Of a stretch of DNA of 64,000 bases, positions 17,978-25,927 are shown piece after piece. Source of the DNA: Terriglobia bacterium (GTDB lineage Bacteria; Acidobacteriota; Terriglobia; Acidiferrales; UBA7541); assembly GCA_020073375.1 (NCBI GenBank), contig JAIQFG010000004.1, positions 1 to 64,000 of the forward strand. Reading direction: 5' to 3'. Both the position numbers and the translations under genes were made by a program. Below the pieces are notes generated by a model. That model saw only the letters and a list, made by a program, of their open reading frames with translations, searched no databases and was not told where the DNA came from. Position 1 is the first letter of the stretch. The number at the start of each line of letters is the position of its first letter.

Positions 17978-18419
17978 GATTTGGCCAGCAGTCCTTTTGG
18001 AAGCAAGCACAGTCCCTTGCTGCCTGGGAGCCGACGCCGAATACGGCTCTCACGTACCGGGATATCTCTGCCAAGCAGTTCATGCCAAGCGCGTAATTTC
18101 GACCCTGAGTAACGTGCGGGCCCCAAATGCTGGCCCCCTGCCACGTTTCCTTATTCACGAAGTCAGCATTCCAATCGATTTTTCTCTTCAGAAGACCTTT
18201 CCGAAGCAATTGAGCAAGCCATAAAGACCGCATATTGAATGAGATCGCCATGCCTGTTTGCCATTGAGCAACACCCTGTCCCACTTTGGTACTAACGTAC
18301 TGTTACGGAACATCTGACCAGTTCGCTAAAACAGTTCCCGAGCGCGGCGCCACTTGCGGAAGTGGAGACCGGCTTCAGAACGAACTCAAATTCTCAAGCA
18401 GGTCCTCTAGGAGGAAATA
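17978..18419. other. Long leader region before the pilin-like cluster
   Basis: This 442-bp gap contains no convincing gene and no copy of the dispersed repeats. It ends with AGGAGG (18410-18415) before the ATG of the first pilin-like gene, and is where promoter and regulatory sites of that cluster should lie. A region with GTACTAACGTACTGTTAC (about 18293-18310) has imperfect dyad symmetry. Confidence 0.5.
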
Positions 18420-18971
18420 ATGCGTGGAATGCAGAAGATGATGTGGTTCATGGTGGCGGCGGTCGCGCTCGTGATGTTTGTGACGCCGGCCTCCTACGCA
18501 CAGCTCAATTCGGGCGCGACGACGGTGGCTTTGAACGCTACGCTGGCCGAAGCGCTCACTCTAAATGTGGCGCCGACAAACGTGACGTTCACGCTGGTCC
18601 CGAGCGGCACCGCCAACGGCAACAGCGCGGTGACCATCACCACGACTTGGGTTCTGGGAACCACTCGCACCGGCCTGACCACCTATGCCTATTTCACCAG
18701 CACCACAGCCCTGATCGACGCCGGCACGGACGTGATCCCCACCTCCAAGTTCAACGGCAGCGTCAATGGCGGCGCTTACTCCGCATTCACCGGCGGCGCC
18801 GGCCCGTTTGGCGCCAACAGCAAGACCGTCTACAACCACGGCGCTTTTGCCGCGGGGCAGTTTAACGGCAACCACACTGACACGCTCGGCCTGCAGATTG
18901 ACACGACTGGTTTGAATCTGCCCGCGGGCGCCTACTCCGGCACGCTGAACATCCAAGCTCAGGCCATCTAG
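18420..18971 (+). CDS. Secreted pilin-like beta-sandwich protein, copy 1
   Basis: A 183-residue protein with a signal peptide ending ASYA (residues 24-27) and a 156-residue mature part without cysteines. The mature N-terminus has an alternating hydrophobic strand (TTVALNATLAEALTLNV), and the C-terminus ends PAGAYSGTLNIQAQAI with glycine 14 residues from the end, as in chaperone-usher pilins. It is clearly paralogous to the product of 19155-19682. Next to a PapD-like chaperone and a barrel protein, it is best read as a fibre subunit. An AGGAGG RBS suggests high expression. No named family is recognised with certainty (DUF4402/SCPU-like folds are candidates). Confidence 0.75.
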   Translation: MRGMQKMMWFMVAAVALVMFVTPASYAQLNSGATTVALNATLAEALTLNVAPTNVTFTLVPSGTANGNSAVTITTTWVLGTTRTGLTTYAYFTSTTALIDAGTDVIPTSKFNGSVNGGAYSAFTGGAGPFGANSKTVYNHGAFAAGQFNGNHTDTLGLQIDTTGLNLPAGAYSGTLNIQAQAI

Positions 18972-18988
18972 TCAAGCAAGGAACGCAA

Positions 18989-19018
18989 GCGCATGACTCG
19001 CGGCAGCGGGTCATGCGC
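18989..19018 (+). promoter_or_regulatory. Intercistronic hairpin between the two pilin-like genes
   Basis: A 12-bp stem (GCGCATGACTCG / CGGGTCATGCGC, one G-U pair) with a 6-nt loop lies 18 nt after the first pilin-like stop. No T-tract follows, so it may attenuate read-through or protect the upstream mRNA, as at the major-pilin boundary of known pilus operons. Confidence 0.6.
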
Positions 19019-19154
19019 CGTCTGACAGGCGGGCCCTGCCGCCCCAGGGGTGTCGGGACCCGCGAACCACTTCGATGCGAGGCAGAGCGATCAACGGCCA
19101 ATGAGCATCCGGCAAAAATTCGGAATGTGGGGCAGCAGAGCCTGCAGGACTGGT

Positions 19155-19682
19155 ATGAAGGCTCTGGCTGTCCTGCTTGTGTGTCTGGCCGCATCCTTGA
19201 CGGCGTCGGCGCAGATCAATACGCCGGTGGGTCCGGTCGCTCTAGCCGCGAATTTGCCGTCGTCCCTGACGGTCAGCGCGACGCCCGGCCTGGTGAACTT
19301 CACCCTGGTTCCCAGCGGCATCTCGAACGGGTCGGCGACGGTGAACATCACGACGACGTGGTCGCTGGCCACAATTGTTTCGCGACTCAGTCTGTACGCG
19401 TATTTCACAAACCCCGCGTCCGCATTGGCCGATGCCTCCGGCCACAATATTCCCGCAGCCAATCTGTTCGGCAGCGTGAATGGCGGCGCGTTCGGCGCAT
19501 TCACCGGAAACAGCCCATTCGCCGCAACCAGCAGCATCACGCTTTTCAGCCGCATTGTCCTGGGGTTCAACATACCGCAATCGCGGACGGATACGCTGAA
19601 CTTGCGCATCAACACGACGGGTTTGACTCTAGCCCCCGGCAATTACGCGGGCCTGCTGGTGATCCAGGCGCAGGCGATTTAG
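19155..19682 (+). CDS. Secreted pilin-like beta-sandwich protein, copy 2
   Basis: ATG 19155, with AGGA just upstream, gives 175 residues: signal peptide MKALAVLLVCLAASLTASA and again a 156-residue mature part. It aligns along its length with copy 1, sharing FTLVPSG, ITTTW, YAYFT, GSVNGGA, AFTG, TDTL, TTGL and an identical IQAQAI terminus. Glycine lies 14 residues from the end (GNYAGLLVIQAQAI). An earlier ATG at 19101 would bury the signal peptide. It is probably a minor or alternate subunit of the same fibre as copy 1. Confidence 0.75.
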   Translation: MKALAVLLVCLAASLTASAQINTPVGPVALAANLPSSLTVSATPGLVNFTLVPSGISNGSATVNITTTWSLATIVSRLSLYAYFTNPASALADASGHNIPAANLFGSVNGGAFGAFTGNSPFAATSSITLFSRIVLGFNIPQSRTDTLNLRINTTGLTLAPGNYAGLLVIQAQAI

Positions 19683-19786
19683 ATGGCTTTGCAGGAGTAA
19701 GACTCCTTGCTCAGGTGTGGGCAAGCGGCAGGCGGCCAAGGATCTTGCGGTAGAAACTTTCAAGTCAAGAATACTGGGGGAATTCC

Positions 19787-20485
19787 GTGCGACATCTGCA
19801 CCGAGTTGTGCTTTGCATGCTGTTCCTGGCGCCTGCTTTGGCGGCCCAGACCATTTCGCCGGTGATCGTGGAATTCCGCGAAAAAGCCGCCGGCCGTTTT
19901 CAAATTCACAACGACACCGATTTTCCGCTCACCGTGGTTCTGGAGCCTTACAGCTTCATCGTGGATTCGGAAGGCAAGCCGACGTTCATAACCCTCTCCC
20001 CCGATATTCATCTGGAGCTGTCCACGACGAGCTTCCGAGTCGGCCCCAAGCAGGACTATTACATATTTTACAAGGCCAGCGCGGACAAGCTGCCGAACTG
20101 GTTTTGCGTTTATGCCAACGTAACCGGACCGCACACGCAGGAAGGCATCCAGGTAAGGCTGGAGCTTCCGCACACCGTCTACCTGCTGGGGAAAAAGCCC
20201 GGCCAAGCAAATGACATCGCCTGGGTGCAGGCGGACACCACCTCGGACGCTCCGAAACCGAAAATCCTGGCAGCGGTGGAAAATCACGGTACGGACGTTT
20301 CCCGCGTCAGCGAAGTCGAGGTCACATCCGCCACTGGCAAGCAGATCTACGAAGGGTTCCCGGTGTTTCCGGGACAGCGCCGGAATATGGAGCTGCAATG
20401 GGAGCAGTCCGGGGTCCCGCAGCACATTCAGCTGAAGTTCGAGCATTTCAAGTCCGAGACCGATTTGCATGCGGCGGCCCGCTAG
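19787..20485 (+). CDS. PapD-like periplasmic chaperone
   Basis: The start is GTG with GGGGGAA upstream. The 232-residue product has a signal peptide (cleavage near ALAAQ) and two Ig-like halves. The first begins ISPVIVEFREKAAGRFQIHN and continues with FRVGPKQDYYIFYKA and GIQVRLELPHTVYLLGKKP, matching the strand order and the G1-like hydrophobic strand of pilus chaperones. The second half (LAAVENHGTDVSRVSEVEVT to QHIQLKFEHF) is the C-terminal Ig domain. Size equals that of PapD/FimC. It lies between the pilin-like genes and the barrel gene, which it overlaps by 17 bp. Sequence divergence leaves some doubt. Confidence 0.7.
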   Translation: MRHLHRVVLCMLFLAPALAAQTISPVIVEFREKAAGRFQIHNDTDFPLTVVLEPYSFIVDSEGKPTFITLSPDIHLELSTTSFRVGPKQDYYIFYKASADKLPNWFCVYANVTGPHTQEGIQVRLELPHTVYLLGKKPGQANDIAWVQADTTSDAPKPKILAAVENHGTDVSRVSEVEVTSATGKQIYEGFPVFPGQRRNMELQWEQSGVPQHIQLKFEHFKSETDLHAAAR

Positions 20486-22160
20486 CAGCCGTCAGACTGC
20501 GGGGCGGGGCCTTGCGGCCCTGCTGTTTGGAATTTTCCTGTCTGGAATTGCGGTGCCCGCCGGCGCCCAGGTGATTCAGGCCACCGGCGGAACGTCCAAT
20601 CTGCTCAATGCCACCGGCGGTTCGCTGGAATTTCGTGGCGCCAACTTTACCGACCGATTCGATCTCGGCTACAACGGTAAACTGCGCAGCGGCTTTTCCA
20701 TGCTGCGCGGCTTCAAGGGCGGTATCATCGACCTGGGAGACCAGACCATCGCCTTCGATCTGCCCACAGACATTTTCGACCAATCGCATTATTTCTTGGG
20801 CCGCGGCGCGGGCTTTTCGCGCGGCAACAACGACCGCAAACTCTATTTCTTCGCCGGAGAAACGGCGAACGGATTTTTCGCGCCATTTCTGAACGTCGCA
20901 ACCATCGATACGCCCACCGTGGCGCTCTTCTACGAGATCAAACTCTCCGCCCGCTGGAAGCTTTTTTCGCGTAATGCATTTTCCACCCGGCAAACGTCCA
21001 TTCAGTCCCTGCAATGGTCCGCGAAAAACGATACGCACATGGCTTTTTCCGCCGGCGTCGGGAACAACCAGCCCTACGGATCCTTCAGCTTCGACCACGT
21101 CGGAAAACGCCTGGTCGCCGACGCTAGCTATGCCGCCGCCGGAAACAATTTCCAGCGCGTGCTGGTTCAGACTCCGCAGGTTTCCGAACCCGACCGCGAG
21201 AATATCCGCCTCGAATTTCGTCCCTGGGAAAATCTCCGGCTGATCGCATCGCGCAACAATTACGCCGCAATGGACCCCACCGGAAACACGCAGCGCTCCG
21301 CCGTCAATAGCTGGGGCGCGTGGGCCAACCTGGCCGGCTTTCAGACCTACGGTTCGCTGAATCAGTCCACGACCTCGTTCGGCCGCGCCGACGCCACTCT
21401 GCTTGGCGTGCACCGGGACATCACTTCGCGCCTGGCCGCCGGCGTCGATTACATGGCCAGTTCGTTCAGGAATCAGCCCGCGTCGAAATCGCTGGTGGGC
21501 ACGGTGCGCGAAATCCTTTCCCCGCGCATCGGCCTCACGCAGCTCATCACGCATACCGCGGGGCAAACTTCGGTTTCCTACGGCGGCACGTTTGTCTCCA
21601 ACCGCGTCACGGTCAGCGCGGAGTACGAGACGCTGTTCTTCCCGTTTTCCGCTCCCGGAACGCCGCAATTCCGCCAGGTCATGGTTCTGGGCCTTCACTT
21701 CCAGTTGCCGTACGGAATTCAGGCTAACTACGGCACCGATGTCTCGACCAATGGACAAGTCCACTACAGCGCCTACGGCACATCCATCGGCTATCGCACC
21801 ATCAAGGGCGGCTCGGGCGGGCCGCAACTGGCGGGCGCGTTCTATTCCAACGTGGCGCGCGGCCGCGTGATGGATCCCTCCGGCCAACCCGTCGCCGGCG
21901 CCGCGATCCTGGTGGGAAAAACGCTGGCCTTTTCCGATTCCTCGGGAAAATTTCTGGTGCGCATGAAGTCTCCCGGCGAACAGCCCCTGCAAGTCTCGCT
22001 CGACGACTTTACCGCCCCGGGCGCGTTCGCCGTCGTATCGGCGCCGCCGAAAGTCCGTGTGGCGCGCGAGGACTCCGCGCAGGAATACGAAGTGATCGTG
22101 AAGCGCGTGCCGCCTGAGTCCGCCGGCAAGCCCAAAGCAGATCCGAATTCGGACCACTAG
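20469..22160 (+). CDS. Usher-like outer-membrane beta-barrel with C-terminal regulatory-like domain
   Basis: The 563-residue protein has a signal peptide (about residues 8-33, ending PAGAQ) and a long run of alternating amphipathic strands typical of outer-membrane barrels (e.g. WKLFSRNAFSTRQTSIQSLQ, LVADASYAAAGNNFQRVLVQ, GQTSVSYGGTFVSNRVTVSA). After the barrel comes a ~75-residue Ig/carboxypeptidase-regulatory-like domain beginning ARGRVMDPSGQPVAGAAILV. This resembles the barrel-plus-end-domain layout of chaperone-usher ushers but is ~250 residues shorter than usual. Its start overlaps the chaperone stop by 17 bp, implying translational coupling. Confidence 0.65.
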   Translation: MRRPASSRQTAGRGLAALLFGIFLSGIAVPAGAQVIQATGGTSNLLNATGGSLEFRGANFTDRFDLGYNGKLRSGFSMLRGFKGGIIDLGDQTIAFDLPTDIFDQSHYFLGRGAGFSRGNNDRKLYFFAGETANGFFAPFLNVATIDTPTVALFYEIKLSARWKLFSRNAFSTRQTSIQSLQWSAKNDTHMAFSAGVGNNQPYGSFSFDHVGKRLVADASYAAAGNNFQRVLVQTPQVSEPDRENIRLEFRPWENLRLIASRNNYAAMDPTGNTQRSAVNSWGAWANLAGFQTYGSLNQSTTSFGRADATLLGVHRDITSRLAAGVDYMASSFRNQPASKSLVGTVREILSPRIGLTQLITHTAGQTSVSYGGTFVSNRVTVSAEYETLFFPFSAPGTPQFRQVMVLGLHFQLPYGIQANYGTDVSTNGQVHYSAYGTSIGYRTIKGGSGGPQLAGAFYSNVARGRVMDPSGQPVAGAAILVGKTLAFSDSSGKFLVRMKSPGEQPLQVSLDDFTAPGAFAVVSAPPKVRVAREDSAQEYEVIVKRVPPESAGKPKADPNSDH

Positions 22161-22347
22161 TTTTACCCCTGCCGTAAGGCCCCCGCGCGGCGATTCGCCC
22201 ATCGAAACACCCAATTGACTTCCCTCTGCGCCGGGCATACGATTTCCCACGGATTGACCGACTGAAACTACTCGCAACGCCAACGCGTCCCAATTCTTGT
22301 TCGTGGATTCGCCGGCCGCACCCGGCCTCTGAAGGAGATCAGCCGTG

Positions 22348-24537
22348 ATGAAAAACAAAATCTTGATTCTTGGAATTCCCGCGATCGCGCTCCTGGCGCT
22401 GTTCGGCAGCGTGCGTTCCGGGCGAAGCGCCGGCAAGGCCGCTGCGGAAGTTAAGATCGATAGCGACGACATCGGCGGCGTGGTCACCAGCGCCAAGGGG
22501 CCCGAAGCCGGCGTTTGGGTCATCGCCGAGACCAAGGACCTCCCCACCGGATACCGCAAGATCGTCGTCACCGACGATCAGGGCCGCTACGTCGTTCCCG
22601 ATCTCCCCAAGGCCAACTACACCATTTGGGTCCGCGGCTACGGGCTGGTGGATTCGGCCAAGGTGCAAAGCGCGCCCGGCAAGATGCTGAATCTCACCGC
22701 CGTCACCGCGCCCAACGAGCGCGAAGCTTCGAAATATTATCCCGCCGCCTACTGGTATTCGCTGATTCACGTTCCCCCCAAGAGCGATTTCCCGGGCACC
22801 GGCCCCAAGGGGAACGGCATCTCGGAACGCATCAAGGATCAGGGCGAATGGATCGAAATGCTAAAAACTGACGGCTGCGAGGCCTGCCACCAGTTGGGCG
22901 ACAAGGCCACGCGCGAAATTGAGCCTGGCCTCGGCGCGTTCGATACCTCCGCGGCCGCCTGGGACCGCCGAATTAAATCGGCCCAAGTGGGCAGCACGAT
23001 GAGCGCGCGGGCGACCCTGCTCGGCCGGCAGCGCATCCTGAGCGACCTGGGCGACTGGACCGACCGCATCAAAGCCGGTGAATTGCCGCCCGCTCCGCCG
23101 CGCCCGCAAGGTCTTGAGCGCAACATTGTCATCACTCAGTGGGACTGGGCCGGTCCAAAAGAATATTTCCACGACGAAATTTCCGTGGACCGCAGAAACG
23201 TGAACTCCAATCCCAATGGCCTCATCTATGGCGTCCACGAAGATAGCGACGATGTGATGACCGTCCTGGATCCGATCAAGAACACGTTCACGCAGGTTCC
23301 CATCCCCGTTAATCCCGGCACACCCATGTTTGAGCCGGAAGAACTCCTGGAGCCTTCTCCGTACTGGGGCGATGAACAGGTCGCCACCGCGCGTTCCGCG
23401 ACGCACAGCTTGATGATGGATTCCCAAGGACGGCTCTGGACCGCCGCACGCAATCGTCAGCTCGATAACCCCGCATGGTGCAAGGCAGGATCCACGAATC
23501 CTTATGCAATGGCCTTCCCCATCAAGGCGGGATCGCGCCAGACCAATTTCTATGACCCCAAAACCGGCAAGTGGACGCTCATCGACATGTGCGCCAGCTC
23601 GCAGCACTTGATGTTTGCCGAGGATGCCAACAATACCCTTTGGTTCAGCGACCCCGGCCAGGACACCATCGGCTGGCTGAATACCAAGATGTACGACGAG
23701 ACTCACGACGCGGTGAAGTCCCAGGGCTGGACTCCCTTCATTCTGGATACCAACGGCAACGGCAAGCGCGATGACGATTACACCCAGCCCGGCCAACCCA
23801 TCGATCCCACCAAGGATGCGCGCATCAAGAGCGGCGTCTACGGCGTAAGCCCGAGTCCGGTGGACGGTTCGATCTGGGGCACGGTGCTGGGTTTCCCCGG
23901 CGGCCTGGTTCGACTAGTCCCCGGTTCGGACCCGATCAAAACAGCCCTCGCCGAATACTATGCGGTACCGTGGAACGACCCGAAAGCACCGGTGCAGGGC
24001 TTCTCTCCCCGCGGCTTGGATATTGACCGCAACGGAGTCATCTGGACCGTCCTCTCCAGCGGCCATTTCGCCAGCTTCGACCGCCGCAAGTGCAAAGGCC
24101 CTCTCAACGGTCCCAAGGCTACCGGCCAGCAGTGCCCCGAAGGCTGGACGCTGTATCGCACTCCGGGCCCGTCGTTCAAGGACAAGAACGTCGACGAGAG
24201 AGTAGGAAGCGCCGACACCAACTATTACAACTGGGTTGATCAGTTTGATGTGTTCGGCTTGGGCAAGAACACACCCATCGCCACGGCCAACGGCACCGAC
24301 GCGCTCGAAGCCCTCGATCCCAAGACCGGGAAATTCACGGTCCTGCGCGTTCCCTACCCCATGGGCTTTTTCGCCAAGAGCATGGACGGGCGCATCGACG
24401 ATCCCAACGCAGGCTGGAAAGGCAAGGGGCTGTGGTCCACCTACGCTACGCGCACGCCGTGGCACCTGGAAGGCGGCAAGGGCACGACCAGCAAGGCCGT
24501 GAAGTTCCAGCTCCGCCCCGATCCGCTGGCTAACTAA
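22348..24537 (+). CDS. Exported carboxypeptidase-regulatory-like / propeller protein with heme motif
   Basis: ATG 22348 (a GTG sits 3 nt earlier) follows AAGGAG. The ~729-residue product has an N-terminal signal/anchor, a carboxypeptidase-regulatory-like Ig domain (DIGGVVTSAKGPEAGVWVIA to NYTIWVRGYGLVDS), a c-type heme site CEACHQ (about residue 178), and then a large propeller-like region with streptogramin-lyase-type strands (SLMMDSQGRLWTAARN, NNTLWFSDPGQDTIGW, GLDIDRNGVIWTVLSSGHFA). Such proteins recur in Acidobacteria with no known reaction. A perfect palindrome follows the stop. Confidence 0.8.
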   Translation: MKNKILILGIPAIALLALFGSVRSGRSAGKAAAEVKIDSDDIGGVVTSAKGPEAGVWVIAETKDLPTGYRKIVVTDDQGRYVVPDLPKANYTIWVRGYGLVDSAKVQSAPGKMLNLTAVTAPNEREASKYYPAAYWYSLIHVPPKSDFPGTGPKGNGISERIKDQGEWIEMLKTDGCEACHQLGDKATREIEPGLGAFDTSAAAWDRRIKSAQVGSTMSARATLLGRQRILSDLGDWTDRIKAGELPPAPPRPQGLERNIVITQWDWAGPKEYFHDEISVDRRNVNSNPNGLIYGVHEDSDDVMTVLDPIKNTFTQVPIPVNPGTPMFEPEELLEPSPYWGDEQVATARSATHSLMMDSQGRLWTAARNRQLDNPAWCKAGSTNPYAMAFPIKAGSRQTNFYDPKTGKWTLIDMCASSQHLMFAEDANNTLWFSDPGQDTIGWLNTKMYDETHDAVKSQGWTPFILDTNGNGKRDDDYTQPGQPIDPTKDARIKSGVYGVSPSPVDGSIWGTVLGFPGGLVRLVPGSDPIKTALAEYYAVPWNDPKAPVQGFSPRGLDIDRNGVIWTVLSSGHFASFDRRKCKGPLNGPKATGQQCPEGWTLYRTPGPSFKDKNVDERVGSADTNYYNWVDQFDVFGLGKNTPIATANGTDALEALDPKTGKFTVLRVPYPMGFFAKSMDGRIDDPNAGWKGKGLWSTYATRTPWHLEGGKGTTSKAVKFQLRPDPLAN

Positions 24538-24586: not shown

Positions 24587-24664
24587 ACTTCTTCCTTCCC
24601 CTCCCCGCCCGCCTGTGATAGATTGCCCCTGATCGCTGGCACCCCCTCCGCGAAAGGCAATGCC

Positions 24665-25927
24665 ATGAAACGCGCCTCCGCCTGCCTGCTTCTGTCATCC
24701 GTTTCTCTTCTGCTCTTGTGCGTGCAGACCGCCCGCGCCGACACGCTCACCGTTACCAGCTCTCCGCCCGGTGCCTCCGTCGAAATCGATGGCCTGAAAG
24801 TAGGCACCACGCCGTACGCGAAGAAAATGCCGGGCGGCTATTTTCACAAGACCACGTTCGGCTCTCACCTGGAACATCCCATGCGGCTTCGTGTAAGCAT
24901 GGACAAATTTACGTCCAGGGAAATCGAAATGACCCAGGGTCCCGTTTCATTTGTGGGCTACACCGCGTTTGGCGCTGCCTATCGCGGAGAATGCTGGCTG
25001 CTGAAGACCGACCATTTTGACTTTGTTCTCGAGCCCGTTTCCAAGTCCTTGACCGGAACCATAATCGCCGCCGCCGGAGGGGCCAAGGTCGAAATGCGCC
25101 CGGAATTGCCCGTGGAAGATATCATCTCGCAATCCAAGCCCGCCGTGGTCGTGCTGAAAGGTTCTGAAGGCCAAGGCAGCGGCTTCTTCATCACCGATAC
25201 CGGAGTGATCGCCACCAACGCCCACGTGGCCCAGGGCGAGCAGAGCCTGATCGCTGAACTTCCCTCGGGGAGGACTCTGGACGCGACGGTTGTCTACGTC
25301 GATTCCGAAAAAGACATCGCCCTGGTGAAGGTTGACGGCGCCGGTTTCGAGCATCTGCCATTGGCCACTTTGACCAGCGTGCGCCAAGGGCAAGCCGTCG
25401 TGGCCCTGGGAAATCCCGGCCACAGTTTGCCGCTATCCGCCACCAAAGGAATCGTCAGTGCCGTGGGCTCGTCGGAAGAATTCGGCCGGGGCACATGGAT
25501 TCAGACCGACGCGGCCATCAACCCCGGCAACAGCGGCGGCCCGCTGCTCAACAGCCACGCGGAGGTAGTCGGAATCAATACCCAGAGGATTGTCGGAAAA
25601 GGTTATCAGAGCATCGGGCTCGCGCTGAGTTCCAACGACTTGATCGAAGTGCTGCATCGTTTCTATCCGTCGGTGACGTCTTCCGCCGCGTCACAAAACA
25701 CTGCCTCCGACTCCTACGGAACCGTCTCCCTTTCTTCCGACCCCGACGGCGCCGAGGTATATCTGGATGGAAAATTCATTGGCAGCACGCCCGCCATGCT
25801 TACGATTGCCGCCGGCGAACACGCCTTGCGCCTCACTTCGCCGAATCGCGAACCGTGGGAGCGCTCGGTCGAAATTCTGAAAGACAGCCAGGTCAGCGTG
25901 AAGGCCCAGCTTGCGCCCGCGCAGTGA
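24665..25927 (+). CDS. PEGA-domain trypsin-like (HtrA-type) serine protease
   Basis: ATG 24665 gives 420 residues with a signal peptide ending near ARAD. A PEGA domain follows (LTVTSSPPGASVEIDGLKVG), then a chymotrypsin-fold protease with the triad in VIATNAHVAQG (His), SEKDIALVKVD (Asp) and INPGNSGGPLL (Ser), and a second PEGA domain at the C-terminus (LSSDPDGAEVYLDGKFIGST). There is no PDZ domain, unlike classical DegP; the PEGA domains probably anchor it to surface or cell-wall structures. It is likely a periplasmic quality-control protease. Confidence 0.9.
   Translation: MKRASACLLLSSVSLLLLCVQTARADTLTVTSSPPGASVEIDGLKVGTTPYAKKMPGGYFHKTTFGSHLEHPMRLRVSMDKFTSREIEMTQGPVSFVGYTAFGAAYRGECWLLKTDHFDFVLEPVSKSLTGTIIAAAGGAKVEMRPELPVEDIISQSKPAVVVLKGSEGQGSGFFITDTGVIATNAHVAQGEQSLIAELPSGRTLDATVVYVDSEKDIALVKVDGAGFEHLPLATLTSVRQGQAVVALGNPGHSLPLSATKGIVSAVGSSEEFGRGTWIQTDAAINPGNSGGPLLNSHAEVVGINTQRIVGKGYQSIGLALSSNDLIEVLHRFYPSVTSSAASQNTASDSYGTVSLSSDPDGAEVYLDGKFIGSTPAMLTIAAGEHALRLTSPNREPWERSVEILKDSQVSVKAQLAPAQ

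Follow-up and report, generated by a model that had tools for sequence, protein, structure and literature searches.

We identified four genes on the + strand at positions 18420-22160 of the window, the 64,000-nucleotide stretch of Terriglobia bacterium DNA analysed here, that very probably encode a divergent, compact lineage of the chaperone-usher pathway, in which a minimal usher exports, and most likely polymerises, donor-strand subunits. Descriptions of chaperone-usher pathways recognise three families (classical, alternative and archaic), whose usher has five domains and about 800 residues. A preliminary description of the window had proposed a candidate divergent chaperone-usher system on seeing two paralogous secreted proteins, a PapD-like protein and a barrel in one same-strand cluster, and this candidate is supported, as the chaperone is homologous to archaic chaperones and the nearest solved structures of the barrel are ushers. 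Predicted export of the subunits is well supported by homology, and we infer fibre formation from the genes and models.

The cluster lies in a draft genome (5.29 Mb, 176 contigs) and contains, in order, subunit 1, subunit 2, the chaperone and the barrel gene. Subunit 1, a pilin-like protein of 183 aa (18420..18971, +), comprises a signal peptide (residues 1-27) and then an N-terminal alternating segment, and its C-terminus is LPAGAYSGTLNIQAQAI-COOH. A strong ribosome-binding site, GGAGGAA, was read in the sequence 5' of this gene (18410..18416, +), which suggests that subunit 1 may be the major subunit, with the expression level judged from that site. Subunit 2 (19101..19682, +; 193 aa) is a paralogue about 46% identical to subunit 1 and has an uncertain start (19101 or 19158), with the reading frame open from a GTG at 19050 and an alternative ATG start at 19158. 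The chaperone gene (19787..20485, +; 232 aa, GTG start) and the barrel gene (20469..22160, +) overlap by exactly the 17 bp first described (20469..20485, +), which likely couples their translation, and the barrel gene encodes 563 aa, in agreement with the initial estimate of about 560 residues. All four proteins begin with a signal-peptide-like stretch ending in ..A-Q, of which the Q is kept in 29/29 subunits, 17/17 chaperones and 17/17 barrels. The four genes are coding and under purifying selection, with pN/pS values relative to the same-genus genome G102 of 0.33 and 0.37 for subunits 1 and 2, 0.19 for the chaperone and 0.25 for the barrel. Promoter and terminator scans returned no signal above chance level. 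The window flanks are common only to G102. Directly downstream of the module, positions 22345-24537 encode a secreted 730-aa protein that has propeller-type motifs and, at its N-terminus, a CarboxypepD_reg-like domain. This protein is 95% identical in G102 and absent from the other module loci. Positions 24623-25927 encode an HtrA-like trypsin domain and a C-terminal PEGA domain.

The impression that none of these parts has a clear named match was borne out by database searches. Single-protein and profile searches of Pfam, NCBIfam and the PDB sequences returned nothing for the chaperone or the subunits, and the only stretch of the barrel protein recognised by Pfam or NCBIfam is CarboxypepD_reg-like and C-terminal (residues 464-515). 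Pfam PapD_N has no match in 17 chaperones, and PF00345 (PapD_N) is absent from the host's own genome. The PapD-like label is consistent with the AlphaFold model of the chaperone, which was built from 17 homologues and has two Ig-like domains (mean pLDDT 86.3). When this model was compared with the PDB using Foldseek, ranks 1-10 were all CsuC and CfaA (E 4e-9 and 5e-8, respectively), followed by lower matches to Caf1M, YadV, DraB, FimC and others (TM-scores about 0.45-0.6). Domain angles are known to differ among chaperones of the superfamily (PMC4654587). As a comparison set, we collected 11 archaic chaperones encoded beside SCPU genes in Acidobacteriota and used hhalign on mature sequences. 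The full-length match to archaic chaperones covered 187 columns (probability 97%, E 9e-11) with a score of 73.3, which was reached by 0/60 column-shuffled profiles (maximum 23.0). Because the score lies far above the shuffled maximum, homology of the chaperone with archaic chaperones is established.

The G1 strand of the chaperone (residues 121-134; 20147..20188, +) shows in its column hydropathies the donor-strand-like pattern G-phi-x-phi-x-phi-x-L-P-H-x-V-Y-L, with perfect alternation over residues 121-127 (mean hydropathies 3.9, -3.7, 4.1, -2.8, 4.2, -0.5, 3.8). Residues L127, H129 and Y132 are invariant in 43/43 chaperones, and R173 and R199, within the second Ig domain of the AlphaFold model (residues about 142-230; 20210..20476, +), are invariant in 40/40. 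The known carboxylate anchors are Arg89 in strand F1, shared by archaic and alternative chaperones, and Tyr196 in strand D2 of archaic chaperones (PMC4654587). Neither has a counterpart here, as the positions aligned by hhalign are F106 (F in 37/43) and P192 (40/40). The sole residue invariant across the whole superfamily is a proline in strand D1 (PMC4654587). No proline was found at the aligned positions 79-82 in 43 chaperones, a result that depends on a loop-rich alignment and on our own placing of that residue. Three homologues (L067:8390-10941, L068:9102-11499 and L100:2091-4077, from genomes G154, G076 and G582) have lost the second Ig domain and kept the first, and to our knowledge a one-domain chaperone is very unusual. 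The barrel is also shorter beside such chaperones, at 470-486 aa with one gap of about 40 columns (2 of 3 genomes, complete gene).

The barrel model, built from 23 homologues (pLDDT 79.2), has 26 strands across residues 35-442 (20571..21794, +), a count that rests on DSSP output for the model and whose true value could be 24. Its top 15 Foldseek matches in the PDB are all FimD or PapC ushers (E 5e-11 to 5e-7; TM-scores about 0.42), and the barrel part is 408 aa in the model, compared with about 404 aa for the PapC pore minus plug and linkers, as derived from residues 146-637 less 248-335 (PMC4356140). A different reading would make this protein a large outer-membrane channel with no relation to ushers, resembling TonB receptors or LptD, that merely adjoins a chaperone and secreted proteins. 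Such a channel would fit the scores of other barrels, which follow the ushers in the same search (Fiu 8e-7, BtuB 1e-6, LptD 2e-6), and the CarboxypepD_reg-type C-terminal domain, which is common in other outer-membrane proteins. We consider this reading very improbable, because ushers make up all of the 15 best matches, with a lead of about four orders of magnitude for the top ones, because the barrel strictly adjoins the chaperone in about 42 loci, and because the model has no plug domain. It is the fold of the model and the genomic context that argue for an usher, as genuine ushers give a weak match at the profile level (score 27.7 vs. a shuffled maximum of 24.4, probability 3%).

A usher-like pore of this kind would be a reduced one. 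Known ushers have an N-terminal domain that recruits and an Ig-like plug between strands 6 and 7 that gates (PMC8410936, PMC4356140). In the model, the barrel starts at residue 35, right behind the signal peptide, which leaves no room for an N-terminal domain; its longest inter-strand loops are 12-18 residues, with no inserted plug domain. There is also no second C-terminal domain in the barrel protein, which has a single beta domain at residues 461-547 (21849..22109, +) that is the counterpart of the usher C-terminal domain. This domain, delimited by profile matches and the model, matches CarboxypepD_reg in 17/17 members, and 7/17 also show a weak match (best E 0.003) to CooC_C, the domain that ends the ushers of CS1 pili. 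Matches of the barrel profile to SusC and to catechol dioxygenases concern the CarboxypepD-type domain alone and were set aside. In a published survey of pore families of the outer membrane, fimbrial ushers measure 830 +/- 32 residues, and Acidobacteria are not among the groups listed for that family (PMC4827864).

The subunits show the traits expected of chaperone-usher pilins, as judged from an alignment of 30 members: a signal peptide, an N-terminal alternating segment (VxLxAxLxESLTV, with V36, L38, A40 and L42) and a C-terminal strand whose conservation continues to the very end of the protein (Y172, G174, L176, I178, A180, A182). Together with the alternating G1 strand of the chaperone, the latter two features support a donor-strand logic, read here from the sequences. 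Named pilin families gave no convincing hhalign match (probability 3.5-15%), and there was no Pfam match to SCPU (PF05229) in the 30 subunits. In hhalign, mature subunits resembled SCPU in the C-terminal strand only (score 20.0, shuffled maximum 13.8, probability 3.5%). PDB matches of the subunit profile were to antibody signal-peptide regions and were discarded, and aspartyl-protease matches of subunit 1 were rejected (E 0.014, one member only). It can be argued that the same machine does not polymerise its substrates and that single surface proteins are individually set free or anchored to make up a coat. This would accommodate the single subunit gene of some genomes, the extra subunit genes far from the machine, and a barrel without the N-terminal domain, which in known ushers hands over subunits during chain growth. 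However, nearly all subunits combine an alternating segment ahead of the fold with C-terminal conservation, and fibre operons usually encode more than one paralogous subunit, which suggests that a coat is improbable and favours polymerised subunits. The extra distant genes were found at L142, L143, L144 and L146 (G094, G014, G110), with a tandem pair in G014. In loci of family f11, a second subunit gene lies downstream of the barrel, and four loci of the window's family carry a divergent subunit-like gene at that place (L053:9820-10338, L054:7552-8157, L093:3467-4015 and L094:5949-6464; about 171-201 aa, ending in ..VTAL, ..VTAI or ..IVVI), which is perhaps a tip or terminator subunit. The window lacks this gene.

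The order of pilins, chaperone and usher that had been read into the window recurs elsewhere, and homologues of these genes stand together across Acidobacteriota loci, a co-occurrence that the preliminary description had left to be checked. The chaperone occurs in 19 of 200 genomes of the class, with a barrel match in 19/19 of those. The subunit, chaperone and barrel families are each present in 27 loci, in the order subunit-chaperone-barrel in 26, and exceptions among the fetched loci are contig ends. No other family is common to more than five loci once antisense shadows of the module genes are set aside. An independent set from family f11 (20/150 genomes and 15/79 genera positive) yielded 17 new loci, 16 of which keep this order. 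Chaperone and barrel distances are correlated (r = 0.95, Mantel p 1e-4), to which common descent contributes; since all genes share descent, the correlation is no proof of interaction. The module spans three or more families of the class and is sporadic within genera (16/95 genomes of the order), a distribution common for adhesins. A search of 396 genomes from the phylum gave no convincing match beyond the class, where one match covered 44 residues and contained a stop, and plasmid searches with the chaperone and the barrel returned no match. A genome-contig scan with the barrel found one close relative only. Within the genomes sampled, with Acidobacteriota and plasmids searched in depth, the module is thus confined to the class Terriglobia. 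In G160, G161, G167, G178, G185 and G193, the barrel matches are confined to the C-terminal domain, and we left them out of these counts. We also observed a chaperone-like gene in G713 (L187:1423-2079; weak match, E 1e-24) with no recognisable barrel or subunit within 1.5 kb, and a divergent or broken C-terminal part of a barrel in G190 (L069:9779-10258), a probable remnant in a genome where no chaperone or subunit was found.

Among known systems, the archaic family (sigma; CsuC-CsuD-CsuA/B, SCPU) is similar in its subunit-chaperone-barrel logic, in a two-Ig chaperone whose best fold match is CsuC and whose profile is homologous, and in the subunit C-terminal strand, which thinly resembles that of SCPU (lpaGtYtgtl). 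These likenesses, in which the chaperone comes closest to its archaic and alternative counterparts by both fold and profile, would be expected if the locus were a known archaic system whose parts merely fall below database cut-offs. We give that interpretation little credence, because genuine archaic systems in the same class differ in size, cysteines, anchors and domains. The new barrel protein has 563 aa vs. about 830, with no N-terminal domain, no plug and one C-terminal domain; the mature window subunits contain no cysteine, whereas archaic SCPU subunits carry invariant cysteines; and the CsuC Arg89 and Tyr196 positions are substituted as described above. Furthermore, Usher (PF00577) was detected in 3/200 genomes and SCPU in 4/200, and the new system is absent from all three Usher-bearing genomes. 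The alternative family (alpha; CfaA/CooC, EcpB/EcpC) is similar in chaperone fold and, weakly, in the CooC_C-like domain of the barrel, but there is no sequence match, the shared Arg89 anchor is not conserved and usher domains are missing. The classical family (FimC-FimD, PapD-PapC, Caf1M-Caf1A) supplies the nearest solved structures of the barrel and a pore of nearly the same length, but three usher domains (N-terminal, plug and second C-terminal) are absent from the new barrel, as is the superfamily-invariant proline from the chaperone. By the tested features, the system is not classical, alternative or archaic, and homology of the chaperone together with the predicted barrel fold places it near or in the chaperone-usher superfamily. 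Because chaperone homology and barrel fold are accompanied by the absence of family features, we describe it as chaperone-usher-like in its workings, and as a new lineage beside the three known rather than part of any one of them. No description of such a system was found in the open-licence papers searched.

For this compact chaperone-usher lineage we propose that both subunits reach the periplasm through Sec, as their signal peptides suggest, and that the two-Ig chaperone would cap each incomplete Ig-like subunit with its alternating G1 strand. It would also hold the subunit C-terminal carboxylate, as the conservation of subunit C-termini to the last residues suggests, for which H129, R173 and R199 may serve as anchors. 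Chaperone-subunit complexes would then be delivered to the 24-26-strand outer-membrane pore. As this pore has no usher N-terminal domain or plug, the complexes would have to be recruited by the one C-terminal domain together with the rim of the barrel on its periplasmic side. The pore would export the subunits, which most likely polymerise into a thin surface fibre through donor-strand exchange with the segment VxLxAxLxESLTV. A stronger proposal, which we regard as evenly balanced, is that the locus represents a fourth chaperone-usher class that occurs in Terriglobia alone. In this class, an usher with neither plug nor N-terminal domain would recruit through its single C-terminal domain, a third kind of carboxylate anchor would be formed by H129 with R173 and R199, and the chaperones of some lineages would be reduced to a single domain.

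Taken together, these results describe a probable stripped-down relative of fibre-building machinery from which parts of the export gate thought to be standard are missing, encoded by a set of sequences entirely missed by current annotation libraries. If true, an usher without recruiting domain and plug would show the minimum needed to gate, recruit and export, and it raises the question of how an ungated pore of such size is tolerated. The system is furthermore a candidate surface structure for a widespread group of soil bacteria.
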